From Flavobacterium sp. 1355 (GTDB lineage: Bacteria > Bacteroidota > Bacteroidia > Flavobacteriales > Flavobacteriaceae), in the NCBI RefSeq assembly GCF_017833415.1, contig NZ_JAFICC010000003.1, positions 62,001 to 126,000 on the forward strand: a stretch of DNA of 64,000 nucleotides. Direction: 5' to 3'. The position numbers and the translations under genes were made by a program. How positions within the stretch are numbered: the stretch's first letter is position 1; each line of letters begins with the position of its first letter. Below are positions 21,538 to 52,617 of this stretch, piece after piece. The notes beneath the pieces are model-generated. The model searched no databases. It was not told the origin of the DNA and worked only from the letters and a program-made list of their open reading frames with translations.

Positions 21538-22251
21538 ATGGCCATAAATACAAAATACAGAACACAGGAAACCGAAATAATGGACGATTTTTCTCTGCAG
21601 GGAGAAGAACTCAGAGAGGCATTAGATCAAATTGCCCGTATCAATCAGTCATTGGGCGGAAATAAAGTGACCCTCAATGGCATTAGGACATTATTGAATG
21701 AATCAGATCATAACAAAACAATTACTATCGCCGATATAGGATGCGGAAACGGAGATATGCTGCGTATGCTGGCAAAATTTGGTCAAAAAAACAAACTTAA
21801 TTTTCAACTTATCGGTATAGATGCTAATGAGTTTACGATCAAGTATGCGAAAAAATTATCACAAGAATATTCTAATATTGAATATCTATGTGTGGATATT
21901 TTTAGCGAAGATTTCAAAACCATGAAGTTTGATATTATTTTATGTACCCTGACGCTGCACCATTTTACCAACGAACAAATATTAAAAATAATTAGTATCT
22001 TTAGTAATAATGCTGAAACAGGCATTGTTATAAACGATTTGCATCGCAGTAAAACAGCCTACAGGCTTTTTGAACTGATCTGTTTTGTTTTTAATCTGAA
22101 CAGCATGTCGCGCGAAGATGGACTGGTTTCTATCCTGAGAGGATTTAAGAAAAACGAACTCGTTGAATTCTCTAAAAAACTAAATTTTAAAAACTATACC
22201 ATAAACTGGAAATGGGCTTTTCGCTACCAGTGGATAATTGCAAAAAAATGA
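21538..22251 (+). CDS. SAM-dependent methyltransferase of the type III PKS cluster
   Basis: A 237-residue class I methyltransferase. Motif I is ADIGCGNGDMLRML (about 65-78), followed by QLIGIDANEF and the motif-IV-like DIILCTLTLHHF. Probably O- or C-methylates the polyketide product made by the next gene. Its TGA stop overlaps the ATG of the type III PKS (ATGA junction), showing translational coupling. Confidence 0.82.
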   Translation: MAINTKYRTQETEIMDDFSLQGEELREALDQIARINQSLGGNKVTLNGIRTLLNESDHNKTITIADIGCGNGDMLRMLAKFGQKNKLNFQLIGIDANEFTIKYAKKLSQEYSNIEYLCVDIFSEDFKTMKFDIILCTLTLHHFTNEQILKIISIFSNNAETGIVINDLHRSKTAYRLFELICFVFNLNSMSREDGLVSILRGFKKNELVEFSKKLNFKNYTINWKWAFRYQWIIAKK

Positions 22252-23300
22252 GTGTAAAAATAGTAACGGTTGCCAGGCAACTCCCAAAATATTCACGTCA
22301 AACGGCTGATATTCTCCCTATGCTGGATGGATGGCTGCACGGACAAGAGGAACGATTTATAAAAAAAGTAAAAAAAATATTTGAAGGTGCAGCAGTAGAT
22401 AAAAGGTATTCGATAATGGATCCTGAAGAGGTTTTTACCGCCACCTCATTTGAAGAGAAAAACGACATTTATACGCGTGAAGTCATTATTTTGGGCGAAC
22501 AGGTACTGCAAAAAGCTCTCGAAAAAGCCAATTGGGATCCGCAGAGTCTGGATTACATCATTACCGTAAGCTGTACCGGAATTATGATTCCGTCCCTTGA
22601 CGCTTATCTCATCAATAAAATGAAACTAAGACAGGATATCGTACGTCTCCCGGTAACGGAAATGGGGTGTGCAGCAGGAATATCAGGCATTATATACGCG
22701 AAAAACTTTTTGAAAGCCAATCCCGGAAAACGAGCCGCTGTTATTGCAGTAGAGTCTCCAACAGCAACATTTCAGCTGGATGATTTTTCTATGCCCAATA
22801 TTGTTAGCGCCGCTATTTTTGGCGATGGGTCTGCCTGTTGTTTGTTGTCTTCTCACGAAGACGATTATGGCCCCGAAATAATAAATGAAGAAATGTATCA
22901 TTTTTATGAGGCCGAACACATGATGGGTTTTAAACTTACCAACAGCGGTTTGCAAATGGTTTTGGATATAGAAGTTCCGGACACGATTGCCTCTCATTTT
23001 GGCGATATCATTCATCCGTTTTTGAAAAAAAACAATCTGGAAATCAAGGATATTGAGCACATGATTTTTCATCCGGGCGGAAAAAAAATTATTACTACCG
23101 TTGAAGCGCTTTTTTCCGGATTAGGAAAAAATATTGATGATACTAAAGAAGTGCTGAAACAATACGGCAATATGTCGAGTGCAACTGTCTTGTATGTTTT
23201 AGAACAAATTATGGACCGAAATCCTAAAGCGGGAGAAAAAGGGTTGATGTTGAGTTTTGGTCCCGGATTTTCGGCACAAAGGGTTTTATTGCAATGGTAA
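22248..23300 (+). CDS. Type III polyketide synthase (chalcone/stilbene synthase family)
   Basis: A 350-residue type III PKS. The Cys-His-Asn triad is visible: C141 in VTEMGCAAG, H275 in IFHPGGKK, N308 in YGNMSSAT; the C-terminal GFGPG-like loop is SFGPGF. Such enzymes extend an acyl starter with malonyl-CoA and cyclise it to a resorcinol, pyrone or phloroglucinol. I choose the start at 22248 because it gives the ATGA overlap with the upstream stop; an ATG at 22212 in the same frame would add 12 residues inside the methyltransferase gene. The neighbouring ketosynthase, dehydratase and ACP suggest that a dedicated fatty-acyl or polyenyl starter is supplied on ACP. Confidence 0.9.
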   Translation: MSVKIVTVARQLPKYSRQTADILPMLDGWLHGQEERFIKKVKKIFEGAAVDKRYSIMDPEEVFTATSFEEKNDIYTREVIILGEQVLQKALEKANWDPQSLDYIITVSCTGIMIPSLDAYLINKMKLRQDIVRLPVTEMGCAAGISGIIYAKNFLKANPGKRAAVIAVESPTATFQLDDFSMPNIVSAAIFGDGSACCLLSSHEDDYGPEIINEEMYHFYEAEHMMGFKLTNSGLQMVLDIEVPDTIASHFGDIIHPFLKKNNLEIKDIEHMIFHPGGKKIITTVEALFSGLGKNIDDTKEVLKQYGNMSSATVLYVLEQIMDRNPKAGEKGLMLSFGPGFSAQRVLLQW

Positions 23301-47250: not shown

Positions 47251-48186
47251 ATGATACAAACAGACCAGTCAAAAAATGATTTAACAACCATAAGCTTAAT
47301 CTCATTGTTAATTGTTTTAAAAAGAGAATATAAAATAATTTTATTGATTACCTTATTTTCTGCTATTATTGGATTTTTTTACACAATAAGCATTCCAAAA
47401 GAATATACTGCTACTGGCAAAATCATGCCTGAAATTGCCTATAAAGCTACTAATGGCATGGGAGGATTATATGAAGTATTAAAGAAATTCAGTAATAACT
47501 CTGATTTATACAATACTGAAATTACAAGCTCAGAGCTGTATGCCGAAATTCTTAAAACAAATGATTTTTACAATTATATTTTTTCTAAAAAAATAAAAGC
47601 GACTAATAATGAGCAAGTAAGTTTTGAATACTATTACTATAACATTTTAGAGAATAAAAATTTATTTGATAAATTAGGAAAATCAAACTCTAATACCAGC
47701 AATAAAATCATGCGTTATAGCGCCATACAGGATATTCAAAAAAGAATTACAATAACTAATACCACAAAAAAAAACAGTGTTATACTGGTTAATGCAAAAA
47801 TGCCCGACCCAGTTGTTGCTGCTGAAATTGTTAATTTCACAATTAGTTACCTCACAGCTTATATAACCAAATATCGTACAGAGAAAGCTCGTCAAGACTT
47901 ATATTTTATAGAAAATTTGCGAAAAAATATTTTAAATGATTCTATAAAAGACCAAGCTGTTACAAAAGAAATTAAAAATAGTTTGTTAGCTTCGACTATA
48001 CAAATGAAAATAAAAATACAGGAAGATACACCAATTTTTCAAATATTAGAAAAAGCTCAAATTCCTGTAATGAGCAGCAATACCCCAACACTATTAATTT
48101 TAACTGTAATTATTTTTATAGGTTTTCTAATTGGAATTCTTATCGCATTTTTAAGAGATAATAATTATAAAATATTATTCTATTGA
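47251..48186 (+). CDS. Wzz-like chain-length determinant
   Basis: A 311-residue inner-membrane protein with the Wzz layout: N-terminal helix after the motif SLLIVLKREYKIILLITLFSA, a periplasmic part that begins PKEYTATGKIMPE, and a C-terminal helix near residues 280-300. It would set polysaccharide chain length. The protein lacks the tyrosine kinase domain. A glycosyltransferase gene lies 2.6 kb away on the other strand, but no polymerase or flippase gene is in view. Confidence 0.8.
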   Translation: MIQTDQSKNDLTTISLISLLIVLKREYKIILLITLFSAIIGFFYTISIPKEYTATGKIMPEIAYKATNGMGGLYEVLKKFSNNSDLYNTEITSSELYAEILKTNDFYNYIFSKKIKATNNEQVSFEYYYYNILENKNLFDKLGKSNSNTSNKIMRYSAIQDIQKRITITNTTKKNSVILVNAKMPDPVVAAEIVNFTISYLTAYITKYRTEKARQDLYFIENLRKNILNDSIKDQAVTKEIKNSLLASTIQMKIKIQEDTPIFQILEKAQIPVMSSNTPTLLILTVIIFIGFLIGILIAFLRDNNYKILFY

Positions 48187-48203: not shown

Positions 48204-48884
48204 TTAAAATCTTTTCCATGGATTTACACCTTCTTTTATTAATCTTTTGTAGAGTAATTTTGCGTAATAAAACTCAACAACTATACTAATTGAAATAATT
48301 AATACTAAAAATGGATTGCCCCATTTATAATAAAAGGGATGAATAAAAAACTGAACTATATAGAAAAAATTACCTAATATCATGAGACCGACAATAATAA
48401 ATGATTGACCTTGGGAATTTCCCCTCTGAAAGAACATAGCCAACATACATATAGGAGTAATCATAAGAATTAACCATGCTATAAAAGCAGGTACTTCTTG
48501 AGAAGAAAAATTATTTAAATATTGCAGGAAAAATTTATGCCCAAAAAAGATAATTAAAAAACTAATCAAGAAAGCAAATACACTTATGCAATACCATTGT
48601 TTTTTTTCTAAATGATAATATTTATTAAAGCTAGAATATCCGTACTTAAAGTATGTATACACAATACCTAAATCACTAAAAAACCAAAGGGCAGTCGTGA
48701 GTTGAGAATATAAACTAAATGGAAAGCAAAAAGTATAAACAAATTCCCAACCGAAATTTAGAGCTAGTGGTATAAGAGGTATACCATATGTCCTATCCTT
48801 TATTCCTCTGGAAATGATAAGCACATAGGCTAAAATCCAACAAAATAATCCTAACAATCCCAATAAAATATTTATATACTTCAC
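48204..48884 (-). CDS. Pyr4/PaxB-like membrane terpene cyclase candidate
   Basis: A 226-residue protein with about seven membrane helices. Three features match the transmembrane terpene cyclases of meroterpenoid pathways (Pyr4, PaxB, AndB): the helix-2 motif LALNFGWEFVY with E47, the next helix start ALWFFSDLGIVYTYFKYG with D71, and an acidic residue in the last helix, IVVEFYY with E204, at the place of the catalytic Asp of Pyr4. These cyclases protonate an epoxidised or plain polyprenyl chain attached to an aromatic ring. The gene overlaps the UbiA prenyltransferase stop by 4 bases (ATGA), a strong functional link. Family membership is from motif memory, not from a search. Confidence 0.6.
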   Translation of the reverse strand: MKYINILLGLLGLFCWILAYVLIISRGIKDRTYGIPLIPLALNFGWEFVYTFCFPFSLYSQLTTALWFFSDLGIVYTYFKYGYSSFNKYYHLEKKQWYCISVFAFLISFLIIFFGHKFFLQYLNNFSSQEVPAFIAWLILMITPICMLAMFFQRGNSQGQSFIIVGLMILGNFFYIVQFFIHPFYYKWGNPFLVLIISISIVVEFYYAKLLYKRLIKEGVNPWKRF

Positions 48885-49867
48885 TTTATCTTTACTTTAA
48901 AAAAATTCCATGCATTAAACAAAGTAGGCACATTAAATATAATAATCGAAACTATCAATAAAATTCCGTTTTGATAATTTTTTAAAGTGAGTAATCCTAA
49001 AAGTGCAAATGGAAGAATCGTTATATAAAAATCAAAAAACATACTTCTGGATTTTTGATTTTGCAATGGCTCAAAAAAATAAAAATCTATACTAAAAATA
49101 ATTTTAAATATACAGAACAATGAAGCATAAATAAAAATAGGAATTACAAATATTTGCCAATTTGTAGCCCAAATAAATATTACAAAAGAAAAAACTTCAA
49201 TTAATAAAACAAACCCCTGAAATATTCTTCTTGACAATTGGGATGTATTATTCACAAAAGTACAGACACCGGCTTTTAAATCATTTTCACAGTCATTATA
49301 CTGATGTATAATCAATGAACGCATACCAAATGAAAAAGTCATCCATATACTACCGCTAATTATCCATATCCAATGATTTCCAATGTCTCCTTTGTACAAA
49401 AAAGAAAAAATAAAAAGTACAGGAAAAAACTGAGAGGCTAATCCGTCGAAAACAATACCAAGAAAAGCTTTTTCTTTTAATCGAAATTGTTTACTTGAAT
49501 AGATATAAAAACAAATCCAGCTTAACCAATAAAAAATAAAGGCATAAAAATTAGAAAATATTAGAATCGAATATGCAATTCCTGCAAATATAGAGCTTCC
49601 CAAAACTATTAATTGAGAATTATGGCTAAGATCAATCATTTTATTTTCTTTTCCAGCTATTAAGTCATCTTCCTGGTCATAATAATTATTTATTAAACTG
49701 GCAAATGCAGCAGCAATTATTACTCCTAATAAAATAAGTAAAACTTGAAAAACTTCCTGCCTGAAATCGTTAACATTTTCTTTAATAAAATATAAATAAA
49801 TCAGTACCAAAAAAGGTGGCAACTTAAACCACCAAGTTGTAACTCTAATATGTTTAAAAAGATTCAT
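48881..49867 (-). CDS. UbiA-family prenyltransferase
   Basis: A 328-residue protein with about eight membrane helices. The first Asp motif is NNYYDQEDD (N60, D64, D68) and the second is YNDCENDLKAG (D192, D196); both are the Mg-diphosphate sites of UbiA-type prenyltransferases. SKQFRLKEK near residue 125 is the typical loop. It should attach an isoprenoid chain to an aromatic or similar acceptor at the membrane. The acceptor is unknown; it is not menaquinone-type MenA by context. It abuts the glycosyltransferase gene and overlaps the cyclase gene. Confidence 0.82.
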   Translation of the reverse strand: MNLFKHIRVTTWWFKLPPFLVLIYLYFIKENVNDFRQEVFQVLLILLGVIIAAAFASLINNYYDQEDDLIAGKENKMIDLSHNSQLIVLGSSIFAGIAYSILIFSNFYAFIFYWLSWICFYIYSSKQFRLKEKAFLGIVFDGLASQFFPVLFIFSFLYKGDIGNHWIWIISGSIWMTFSFGMRSLIIHQYNDCENDLKAGVCTFVNNTSQLSRRIFQGFVLLIEVFSFVIFIWATNWQIFVIPIFIYASLFCIFKIIFSIDFYFFEPLQNQKSRSMFFDFYITILPFALLGLLTLKNYQNGILLIVSIIIFNVPTLFNAWNFFKVKIK

Positions 49868-50884
49868 TTAATTCTTAGTAAATTGAATATTTCTGGTTAT
49901 TTCTTTTTGAACCCCATTCATAAGAGCTTTAAAAAATAATTTTGGCTCTTGTGCAAAATATATAAAAAGGTCTTTCATTTCTGTATCAAAATCACCTTTC
50001 AAGAGCAATAAACAAGATATTAAAATTTTATTTTGAAAAATTTTTAATCTTATCATTTTAAGTTCATTATTATCTAAATAACAACTAAAATTAGAAAGAA
50101 TTAAATGCAAATCTTTAATATGCAGTTTTCTAAATACAACTCCCTTTCTGCCATCACTAACATTACTAGTGTCTCTGTTTTTTTTCCAAAAGATCTCTTT
50201 AGTAAAACCCACACGACAATCTAGTTTTTTAAAAATTATTTCTAGTTGCAAAAACCAATCATCACCAATATGTACCTGAGAATTCCAACCAAAAGGTATG
50301 ACTGACTTCTTGATGATTAAACCTGAGCTTGGAGCAATAGAATCAATTAATAAAATTTTTCTAAATTCAGCATAATCAAAAACATAACAACCTTTATTTG
50401 GAATATTTTTATTTTTTAAAAGAGAAGCAAAAATATTTGCATGATATCTTTCAACAATGTTGTGCTCCCAATTAGAAAAAAAAAGATCCAATTTATGTTC
50501 TTGCAAATATCCAATACTTTTTTCAAGATATTTATCATGCCAAATATCATCTGAATCAAGAGGTGCTATAATTTCTCCATGAGCATATTGTAATCCAACA
50601 TTTCTTGTATCAGCCTGCCCTGTATGTGTTTTTTGAATGTATAGAACTTTATCTGAAAAAGTTGAAACTAATTTTTTTGTATCATCAGTTGAACCATCAT
50701 CAACTACAATTATTTCAATATTCTTATAAGTTTGGTTTAAAGCTGCAGTGATGGTTGAATGTAGAGAATAAGAGCGGTTGTAAGTAGGGATGATTATCGA
50801 TACAAGAGGAGAATAAGTGGTATTAAGCAATGGTTTATTGTTTTGGTTTAAAATGCTTTTGGTTTCGCAAACAAATCTAATCAA
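49868..50884 (-). CDS. Family 2 glycosyltransferase
   Basis: A 338-residue GT-A glycosyltransferase: SIIIPTYNRSYSLHSTI at the start, VVDDGSTDDT, and the metal-binding DxD in IAPLDSDDIW (about 112-121). No membrane helix, so it acts on the cytoplasmic side. First gene of a three-gene unit with the prenyltransferase and the cyclase-like gene, which suggests glycosylation of the same product; cell-surface polysaccharide synthesis is the alternative. Confidence 0.85.
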   Translation of the reverse strand: MIRFVCETKSILNQNNKPLLNTTYSPLVSIIIPTYNRSYSLHSTITAALNQTYKNIEIIVVDDGSTDDTKKLVSTFSDKVLYIQKTHTGQADTRNVGLQYAHGEIIAPLDSDDIWHDKYLEKSIGYLQEHKLDLFFSNWEHNIVERYHANIFASLLKNKNIPNKGCYVFDYAEFRKILLIDSIAPSSGLIIKKSVIPFGWNSQVHIGDDWFLQLEIIFKKLDCRVGFTKEIFWKKNRDTSNVSDGRKGVVFRKLHIKDLHLILSNFSCYLDNNELKMIRLKIFQNKILISCLLLLKGDFDTEMKDLFIYFAQEPKLFFKALMNGVQKEITRNIQFTKN

Positions 50885-51324
50885 TTATTTATATCCAATA
50901 AAATCTTAAAAACAAAAAAAAACTAATCTAAATTCAAAATTCCTTCCGAAATCTATCTTGCATATTTTTAATCAACAGTCAATTGATTTGCAAACTATTC
51001 ATAATCAAGACAAAAGGTCGTTAGGTATTCATATAAATATTCTAACAAGGTTCTCTAATGTACTATATAAGAGTAAATTAAAGTTTGTGAATTATAAATC
51101 AATTAAATAAAATTATCAGAATTTACTTTATGCAATTAGACTATACATTTTAACCAAAAGTGTAATTTAGCCTATAACTACTAATTATCAATCTTTGGCA
51201 AAAACAAAAATAGTGATCTGTAAATCACCCAGTTCTGACAACAGTTTCATACAATATAAAAAAAGTCCGGAAATTAAATTTCCGGACTTTTTATTATTAT
51301 TATATACCTATATATTATAAAGGC
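50885..51324. other. Intergenic region before the glycosyltransferase unit
   Basis: About 440 AT-rich bases. The only clear element is the terminator at 51261-51291. The glycosyltransferase unit promoter should lie here, but I see no convincing TAnnTTTG element. Confidence 0.4.
51261..51291 (-). terminator. Terminator after the secreted repeat protein
   Basis: A 15-bp perfect inverted repeat (51261-51275 with 51277-51291, core AGTCCGGAAA) flanked by T-runs, 34 bases after the stop at 51325. On the minus strand the second arm ends in TTTT. Confidence 0.85.
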
Positions 51325-52617
51325 TTATCTATTTCCGCTTGAAGCTGTAATTTTTCCTAACTGAAGTCTGAAGTCTGGTTTTTTCGGATTGAAAATATCT
51401 ACAAACATTTCTTTGTTGTCAGTTTGTGAATACACATTAAAGAAAAGGCTGTTTCCGTACCAATTTTCTAAATCTTCGTTGTTTGTATTATATTCAGTAA
51501 AAATGTTTCCGTTACAAAGGTTAAAGAACATTTCTTCAAATTTAATTTTCTTAAGGCTGGCATCATTGATTACCGTTTTGCTATCTATTAGTACAGCTGG
51601 ATTAAATCCTGAGACTACACTGCGTTTCATTTCTACAGTGGCATTCTCACCAATGTATATAGCTTCTTTTACCAAACCTGCCTGAATATCAGCTTTAATA
51701 TTTTCACTGTCGTTAAGCATTGTCATGTTTGAAGCTACTACCAATGTAGGTTTTTTGGTAAAGTCTGTTTCGTTTTTCTTTTCATATGATTTTACCTCCA
51801 TGCAACGAGACCCGTCTTTGTTACTTGACAAATAAGATGATCTTACTGCCAATGAATTAAACAAACGGCATTGTGCTCCTTGTGTAAATTTATAATCATC
51901 ATTGATTGATTTATAAGAAACAAACTGTGCTGCAGTCACATCGCCTCCAAAAAAGGCAAAAGAGTCACCACCGGAATAGCTTACCATTACATTTTCTAAT
52001 ATGGTTTTGTTTCCAACTCCTGCAATAGTTAAACCGTTAAAAGTTCCGTCACCTTTTACTTTTTTTCCTGCAAATTCAATTCTCACAAATCTCATGATTC
52101 CGGAGTTTGAAGCAACATTATTACCTCCGTATGTTGTTAAAACCGGATCAAGATCAAGGTTATAAGAACCTACATTGCCAAATTTATTGATTGGAGCATC
52201 TCCTAGTATCACTACACCGCCCCAGTCTCCTGCTTTCTTCACACTGCGGTCAGAAGTAAATACGATTGGGTCAGTCTCAACGCCATCAGCAATTATCTGC
52301 GCGCCTTTTGTTATTACAAGTGTTCCTTTTGTTTCGAAATCGCCTATGATTAGTGTTCCTGGTTCGATTGTCAGTACAGCATTATTAGTGACATATACAT
52401 TTCCTTGCAGTACATATACGTTTCTTTTTAATAATTTGGTATTCTCTGCTATGTTTCCAGCCAGAATCTGATTCGGTTCACCATATTGTGCTTTATGAGG
52501 CTTAAACTCAGTCCAGTTGTTCAGCCAGTTGCTGTAGCCCATAATTCCTTTCTCCTGTTGTGCACTCATACTGGTAGCAATCAAAAGAAAGCAGATGATT
52601 TGAGTAATTTTTTTCAT
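51325..52617 (-). CDS. Secreted beta-helix-like protein
   Basis: A 430-residue exported protein. A signal peptide (KKITQIICFLLIATSMSAQ) is followed by repeated short strands such as VYVTNNAVLTIEPGTLIIG, GTLVITKGAQIIADG and GVVILGDAPIN that look like coils of a right-handed beta-helix. Similar flavobacterial proteins are annotated only as secreted or membrane-linked. It lacks a T9SS C-terminal domain, so it is probably periplasmic or surface-attached by other means. No catalytic motif seen. Confidence 0.72.
   Translation of the reverse strand: MKKITQIICFLLIATSMSAQQEKGIMGYSNWLNNWTEFKPHKAQYGEPNQILAGNIAENTKLLKRNVYVLQGNVYVTNNAVLTIEPGTLIIGDFETKGTLVITKGAQIIADGVETDPIVFTSDRSVKKAGDWGGVVILGDAPINKFGNVGSYNLDLDPVLTTYGGNNVASNSGIMRFVRIEFAGKKVKGDGTFNGLTIAGVGNKTILENVMVSYSGGDSFAFFGGDVTAAQFVSYKSINDDYKFTQGAQCRLFNSLAVRSSYLSSNKDGSRCMEVKSYEKKNETDFTKKPTLVVASNMTMLNDSENIKADIQAGLVKEAIYIGENATVEMKRSVVSGFNPAVLIDSKTVINDASLKKIKFEEMFFNLCNGNIFTEYNTNNEDLENWYGNSLFFNVYSQTDNKEMFVDIFNPKKPDFRLQLGKITASSGNR

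Follow-up and report, generated by a model that had tools for sequence, protein, structure and literature searches.

The four-gene cassette

The subject of this report is a compact gene cassette in the genome of Flavobacterium sp. 1355 (5.17 Mb, 31 contigs), located within a stretch of 64,000 nucleotides that was analysed as a whole and is referred to as the window. The cassette spans 3.6 kb and comprises genes for a GT2-family glycosyltransferase, a UbiA-superfamily prenyltransferase and a small protein assigned to the Pyr4-type terpene cyclases, which follow one another on the minus strand, and then a convergent Wzz-like gene on the plus strand (Table 1). An earlier note, made from the sequence alone, had read the first three as a candidate meroterpenoid pathway; its three minus-strand open reading frames (ORFs) are present where it placed them, and its span omitted the Wzz-like gene, the constant companion of the trio. 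Chance is not the explanation of this arrangement, because the small protein matches the profile PF25129 at E 8.6e-26, the same profile matched 0/14 well-known control genomes, and all four genes occur in the same order and orientation in 9/9 Flavobacterium genomes found to carry this UbiA.

Table 1. Features of the cassette, with positions in the window.
Feature	Position	Strand	Basis
GT2-family glycosyltransferase	49868-50830	minus	PF00535 E 2.5e-32; start set by relatives' aligned starts
UbiA-superfamily membrane prenyltransferase, specialised clade	48881-49867	minus	PF01040 E 1.9e-15
Putative Pyr4-type transmembrane terpene cyclase, 226 residues, GTG start	48204-48884	minus	PF25129 E 8.6e-26; seven-helix model
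Wzz-like polysaccharide co-polymerase	47251-48186	plus	PF02706 E 8.7e-10; convergent, tail to tail with the cyclase gene
Promoter-like conserved block ahead of GT2, ends TAGATTTG	50872-50891	minus	8/8 loci, two variable positions

The overlap between the UbiA and cyclase genes, described earlier as ATGA, reads GTGA in the window, the cyclase gene starting with GTG at 48884; among seven relatives this junction is ATGA in six and a one-base gap in L063. The abutting glycosyltransferase gene is real, but the start attributed to it at 50884 is doubtful: the gene probably starts at TTG 50830, giving a product of 320 residues, because the TTG at 50884 falls within a conserved block and the starts of the relatives align at 50830. 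This block reads TAAATAATT[GA]A[TC]TAGATTTG and is present in all eight aligned loci, and its 3' end corresponds to what we take to be the promoter box TAnnTTTG known from Bacteroidota. A sigma-70 scan returned 24 promoter-like sites against 30.2 in shuffled sequences, adding no support for a promoter, and the exact pattern TTTG-N18-TAnnTTTG had no match at the cassette start in the window; the block may be called promoter-like, with the -7-like box as its one supported element. About 430 bases upstream of the GT2 start, at 51260-51292, lies an inverted repeat of 15 pairs that has T tracts on each strand and is likely a shared terminator.

Both Asp-rich motifs attributed to the prenyltransferase were confirmed (NNYYDQEDD, residues 60-68, and DCEND, residues 192-196), their Asp-motif residues being invariant in alignments A2 and A9, and the PF01040 match reaches 57.3 bits against a cut-off of 34.2. 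The clade is further marked by WWxxK, AGK and R.KxK motifs. The host genome holds five UbiA genes, and the cassette UbiA is 21-25% identical to the other four, the 21% value being rough because the L071 sequence used was truncated at an internal Met; one of these four appears MenA-like and one heme-O-like by reading of the sequences. A PDB search with the profile of the cassette UbiA gave digeranylgeranylglyceryl phosphate synthase (E 1.6e-4) as the sole match at E up to 1, and its NCBIfam matches were prenyltransferases, all far below cut-off. In a UbiA tree in which one outgroup row is plainly misplaced, the cassette proteins group together as a single clade (support 100/100), and L118 is their sister (95/89); L164, whose UbiA was lost in ORF selection, and L174, whose UbiA is broken, were kept out of the trees and included in the partner counts given below.

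The small protein matches PF25129, the family of 'Pyr4-like transmembrane terpene cyclases', at 91.5 bits (cut-off 27), and the cassette cyclase of L061 matches it at E 4.6e-24; by this profile the small protein is a putative Pyr4-type membrane terpene cyclase; its match to the PQ-loop family is weak (E 0.0075, below cut-off). The WEF (46-48) and SDLGIVYTY (70-78) motifs and the acidic Glu204 in the last helix, all noted earlier, are present, and an AlphaFold2 model built from eight cassette sequences contains seven helices (mean predicted local distance difference test 73, predicted template modelling score 0.66). In the bacterial cyclase DmtA1, the E60A and E60Q mutants abolish function, Y33 variants are inactive, and D214A yields very little product and D214N more (PMC6173783). 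Tyr20, Glu47 and Glu204 of the cassette cyclase correspond to Y33, E60 and D214 by way of aligned relatives and spacing, DmtA1 itself standing outside the alignment; the Tyr-Glu spacing is 27 in both, and the Glu-acid spacing is 157 in the cassette protein versus 154 in DmtA1.

Among the eight cassette cyclases of alignment A5, Tyr20, Glu47 and Asp71 are kept in all, and position 204 is Glu in five and Asp in three. Alignment A6 covers 23 Pyr4-like proteins, five of them from cassettes; it omits L036, L043, L050, L055, L057 and L058 (ORFs missed, fused, broken or cut), the cassettes L031-L034 (which duplicate L064-L067 or share their site), and L062, L065 and L066. Here Tyr20 is found in 23/23 rows, an acid at position 204 (Asp or Glu) in 23/23 and Glu47 in 18/23, the other five having Ala and all belonging to genus g64 of family f18; one aligned Streptomyces protein and one aligned Nostoc protein keep all three residues. 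These five g64 proteins (L037, L038, L042, L052 and L054) come from a group that may be Chlorobiaceae, and their genes have housekeeping genes, including those of ATP synthase, as neighbours; other members of the group retain the catalytic Glu. In L041 (8238-12699), UbiA, Pyr4-type cyclase and FAD monooxygenase genes are consecutive, as in fungal pathways, and a PMT_2 membrane glycosyltransferase gene adjoins them. An unusual partner occurs in L040 (8846-10712) and L056 (8340-10215), where the Pyr4-like gene lies directly 3' of an MPAB/Lcp-type oxygenase gene (called by Pfam in L040 and by similarity in L056).

A sequence search of the PDB found no Pyr4-type structure. When the cyclase model was compared by VIA-align, the closest folds were the KDEL receptor (Z 12.4, root-mean-square deviation 4.4, 195 residues aligned) and SWEET (11.2), with cystinosin also close, and unrelated helical proteins in the list scored 7.1 and below; these matches are limited to the families listed by Foldseek or VIA-align, and a Z below about 13 for helical bundles may reflect a common arrangement.

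The Wzz-like protein matches PF02706 with 39.2 bits (cut-off 25.5), and the cut-off was passed in 3/3 loci scanned. A structural comparison of its model gave matches to WzzE, Wzc and KpsE, the best Foldseek hit being WzzE (E 3.9e-8), and the gene is present in 9/9 cassettes.

Distribution and evolution of the cassette

The nine cassette genomes are that of the window, G183 and seven named holders: F. cupreum, F. sp. ENC, F. circumlabens, F. defluvii, F. pectinovorum, F. sp. LC2016-23 and F. taihuense. The UbiA profile matched 6/398 genomes of the genus, the window's own included, five of which hold the cassette; the sixth, G1100, has a UbiA that is 31% identical. The profile PF25129, again counting the own genome, matched 5/199 genomes in the genus (one, G181, as a fragment at a contig end), 2/397 in the family search, where the other match has three internal stops, and 24/395 across the phylum. 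Two of the genomes are not countable as cassettes, namely G181, with its fragment of a Pyr4 gene, and G847, which has the three stops and a stretch without a cassette-type UbiA; G1274, a fragment at a contig end, was left out.

The cassette occupies a common site in G183 and F. defluvii. F. cupreum and F. sp. ENC have one flank in common and differ in the other, and F. circumlabens has three genes in common with the window, on the opposite side of the unit, and one with LC2016-23; no further flank genes are common to the cassette loci under the shared-flank criteria used. Homology between the loci starts just before GT2, at the conserved block, and mostly stops near the start of the Wzz-like gene, the F. 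cupreum and ENC pair being the exception. Additionally, the guanine-cytosine content of the cassette (25.8-32.0%) is lower than that of the flanks (31.3-39.5%) in 8/8 loci. The ratio of nonsynonymous to synonymous substitution rates (dN/dS), taken from six pairs per gene, is 0.07-0.17 for GT2, 0.12-0.17 for UbiA, 0.09-0.16 for the cyclase and 0.13-0.35 for Wzz; these 24 values, 0.07-0.35 in all, are rough, with dS up to 2.0, and the cassette genes are under purifying selection.

The cassette was presumably acquired or spread horizontally. No transposase or integrase was found in the 10 flank proteins of relatives scanned, which are a minority of the flank genes, no transfer RNA gene lies in the window, and no cassette was among the plasmid matches. 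The neighbouring gene at 51325-52617 has a second copy in the genome that is 87% identical, as well as paralogues in relatives; the two copies lie at G000:C3:113328-114617 and G000:C2:296386-297675. A comparison by way of this neighbour showed no empty site, since the gene has several paralogues and none of its copies has a further gene in common with the window stretch.

Relatives of the prenyltransferase outside the cassette

The same UbiA clade was located in 26 loci outside the cassette, read up to about 10 kb on each side and drawn from four plasmid records, four further Bacteroidota genomes, G1100 and 17/18 further genomes from two genera. The Bacteroidota search matched 6/385 genomes, two of them with cassettes, and the two genera are those of G361 (9/61 genomes matched) and G275 (11/60 matched). 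Across the 26 loci the partners are a GT4 glycosyltransferase in 20, a glycan or lipid exporter in 19 (11 ABC transporters of 600 residues and 8 Wzt-type ATPases), a class II cyclase-like protein in 15 and a cassette-type GT2 in 14, the last of which upholds the earlier view of the glycosyltransferase as a true partner of the prenyltransferase. A Pyr4-type protein was found in 0/26. A typical gene order is ABC-GT4-cyclase-UbiA-GT2, as in L134 and L166; the Methylomagnum locus additionally carries a polyprenyl synthase gene, and in Nostoc L123 a single protein fuses PhyH, UbiA and cyclase-like domains. As a control, seven loci of other UbiA types (the four of the host genome and L068-L070, one stretch being just 5.8 kb) gave 0/7 for GT4, exporters and either cyclase, and one weak GT2 match of 39 bits.

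The class II cyclase-like protein has about 345 residues and is either stand-alone or fused to UbiA (Nostoc). A profile built from four such proteins retrieves drimenol synthase 9mhs (E 4.4e-14) together with AstC and squalene-hopene cyclase, and PF13243 matches L135 at 2.3e-6 (above the cut-off), L136 at 8.2e-6 (just below) and L134 at 0.01, with no match for L125. The DxDD motif, which is the rule for class II terpene cyclases, is kept in 11/15. This family had no match in any of the six cassette genomes searched (6/6). A single UbiA/glycosylation core thus occurs with two unrelated families of putative cyclases, both of a kind that initiates ring formation by protonation. This supports the cyclase role of the Pyr4-type protein independently of its own sequence, because two candidate types of cyclase stand beside this core and the cassette genomes searched lack the other type. 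Inside the UbiA/cyclase cluster L135 (4173-7338), one ORF combines acyltransferase and cytochrome P450 domains and lies beside a sulfotransferase-like gene; the genome holding this cluster, G303, is also that of L041.

Interpretation and comparison with known systems

The reading towards which we lean, with a confidence somewhat above even, is that the four genes were acquired horizontally as a unit and make a prenyl conjugate that is cyclised, glycosylated and bound to the membrane. The product is probably a surface glycan or glycolipid, or is joined to one, and not a free small aromatic, because a Wzz-like gene belongs to the unit and exporters and GT4/GT2 pairs lie near the kin of its UbiA. 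In such a pathway the Asp motifs of UbiA would bind magnesium and diphosphate, and the enzyme would take an isoprenoid diphosphate supplied by core metabolism and join it to an acceptor encoded outside the cassette. The Pyr4-type protein would protonate the prenyl chain through Glu47, with help from Tyr20 and from the acid at position 204, and close rings in class II fashion, with GT2 adding a sugar before or after prenylation. The data themselves show the protein families, the kept residues, the linkage of the genes, their purifying selection, the different sites of the cassette and the two cyclase types beside one UbiA/GT core, whereas the horizontal spread, the reaction order, the prenyl length, the acceptor and the glycan as destination are points that we infer.

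The earlier proposal of a cyclised, perhaps glycosylated prenyl-aromatic thus survives in its UbiA/Pyr4 pair and its GT2 partner but not in its aromatic acceptor. As the note had said, no acceptor is encoded among the four genes; none was recognised among the annotated genes, which are a part, of the related clusters, and neither an acceptor gene nor an epoxidase gene is among the four cassette genes and the 10 scanned flank proteins of relatives. Core metabolism may supply the acceptor. The type III polyketide synthase gene that had been suggested as a source is real (22212-23300, PF02797 E 1e-19, about 25 kb away), but a link to the cassette did not emerge, and the candidate was rejected because, in the cassette loci of the seven named holders with flanks of up to 8 kb, no ORF has it as its best match.

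Several points weigh against the glycan-linked pathway. The cassette contains no exporter or flippase, UbiA enzymes usually prenylate aromatics, and Wzz could serve an unrelated polymer. The placement of the root varies between the UbiA trees: with fewer outgroups it lies at the cassette, which stays on one side in 52% of 200 bootstrap trees, so that either cyclase type may have replaced the other. Moreover, 20/26 related loci come from two genera and are not independent. In the cyclase-like family the last Asp of DxDD is absent in 4/15 proteins, and around the motif the alignment with drimenol synthase is weak (15 bits). Furthermore, a cyclase-like gene is missing from the stretch read in 11/26 loci, which means that ring closure is not a constant step and looks optional, and the Pyr4-like genes found elsewhere in the phylum occur without a cassette-type UbiA nearby.

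One alternative is a classical small-molecule meroterpenoid pathway, in which UbiA would prenylate a soluble aromatic that core metabolism provides, the Pyr4-type protein would cyclise it, GT2 would glycosylate it and the product would leave the cell, Wzz being a bystander or having another role. The characterised bacterial cases are indeed small molecules, including xiamycin, tolypodiol and zigralone as well as the guanidine triterpenoid gromomycin (PMC13307353), and the drimentines (PMC6173783); ebo-cluster UbiA enzymes of Flavobacteria farnesylate quinolines (PMC9235831), and the UbiA-cyclase-FAD monooxygenase row of L041 belongs to another Bacteroidota genome. However, the cassette has neither acceptor nor epoxidase gene, Wzz is kept in 9/9, and glycan or lipid exporters lie near the kin of UbiA in 19/26 loci, which makes this explanation rather unlikely. 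That the 226-residue protein is a lipid or sugar transporter or flippase is improbable: its predicted fold is similar to that of the KDEL receptor, SWEET and cystinosin, and the cassette lacks the exporter of related clusters, but the profile match is specifically to Pyr4-type cyclases with the PQ-loop match below cut-off, the protein keeps the Tyr, Glu and acid that mark the cyclases, and the fold is not decisive since Pyr4-type enzymes may share it.

Two further explanations would reassign the prenyltransferase. UbiA-type enzymes make polyprenyl-phosphate-pentose in Citrobacter and mycobacteria (PMC11127046), and the glycan context of the cassette would suit such a role, as in three-component systems by which O-antigens receive pentofuranose, the remainder being glycan decoration with no terpene chemistry; this is very improbable, given that the cassette has no HAD/phosphatase partner, MATE flippase or GT-C, that the matches of UbiA are to digeranylgeranylglyceryl phosphate synthase in the PDB and, below cut-off, to prenyltransferases in NCBIfam, and that the terpene cyclase would be left unexplained. 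A UbiA with a small membrane cyclase is also found in C50 carotenoid pathways, and the pair might act on menaquinone side chains or lycopene. This quinone or carotenoid tailoring appears scarcely credible in view of the Pyr4 profile match with no lycopene-cyclase family among the matches, the four other UbiA genes of the host (one MenA-like and one heme-O-like by reading) and a rarity (5/199 genus genomes, own included) unlike that of a core function, and it would leave GT2 and Wzz unexplained.

Returning to the glycan-linked conjugate, a wider proposal is put forward tentatively, as a possibility that we hold to be somewhat doubtful: the cassette may belong to an undescribed and widespread pathway family of Bacteroidota, cyanobacteria and Proteobacteria that places a class-II-cyclised terpene on a surface-exported glycan or glycolipid. 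Either of two unrelated cyclases, the Pyr4 type in the Flavobacterium cassette and the drimenol-synthase/squalene-hopene type elsewhere, would serve one UbiA/glycosyltransferase core, and the cassette with Wzz would be a portable surface-modification unit. If so, one prenyltransferase clade links terpene chemistry and surface-glycan assembly, fields that have been treated apart, and terpenoid glycolipids or terpenyl glycans may be present in many bacteria, overlooked so far by lipid and polysaccharide analyses.

Bacterial Pyr4-like cyclases were charted in 2026, with 1107 candidates, of which 264 were kept near terpenoid genes, 69% of those in Actinomycetota (PMC13307353); the earlier remark that bacterial cases are few stands for characterised ones but not for candidates, and the listed sequences may include Flavobacterium members. 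In the open-licence literature, judged by titles and abstracts, no description of this cassette, of Wzz with such a pair or of a cyclase exchange was found. The comparison with fungi, which had been drawn as exactly this pair, applies to UbiA and the Pyr4-type cyclase but does not extend to an epoxidase.

The cassette cyclase resembles the characterised Pyr4-like cyclases (XiaH/XiaE, DmtA1, TylF, GroF and ZigF) in profile, size, seven helices and the Tyr, Glu and acid, and differs from them in that the second acid is Glu, not Asp, in 5/8 cassettes. As in the zig cluster, the UbiA gene lies within the unit; unlike the characterised bacterial systems, the unit has no epoxidase or acceptor gene and possesses GT2 and a Wzz-like gene. 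Its UbiA shares superfamily and Asp motifs with the aromatic prenyltransferases Ubi-297/EboC of Flavobacteria and ZigC, whereas its clade appears to differ from that type in its WWxxK, AGK and R.KxK motifs and its proximity to glycosyltransferases and exporters. The class II cyclases (drimenol synthase/AstC and squalene-hopene) appear to be related to the alternative cyclase-like gene near the UbiA kin, a type that is absent from the cassette itself. Finally, like the O-antigen modification systems (three-component Gtr and pentofuranose), the cassette is a small set of accessory genes in which a glycosyltransferase or UbiA might modify a glycan that is produced elsewhere; unlike them, it has no GT-C or flippase and carries a terpene cyclase.

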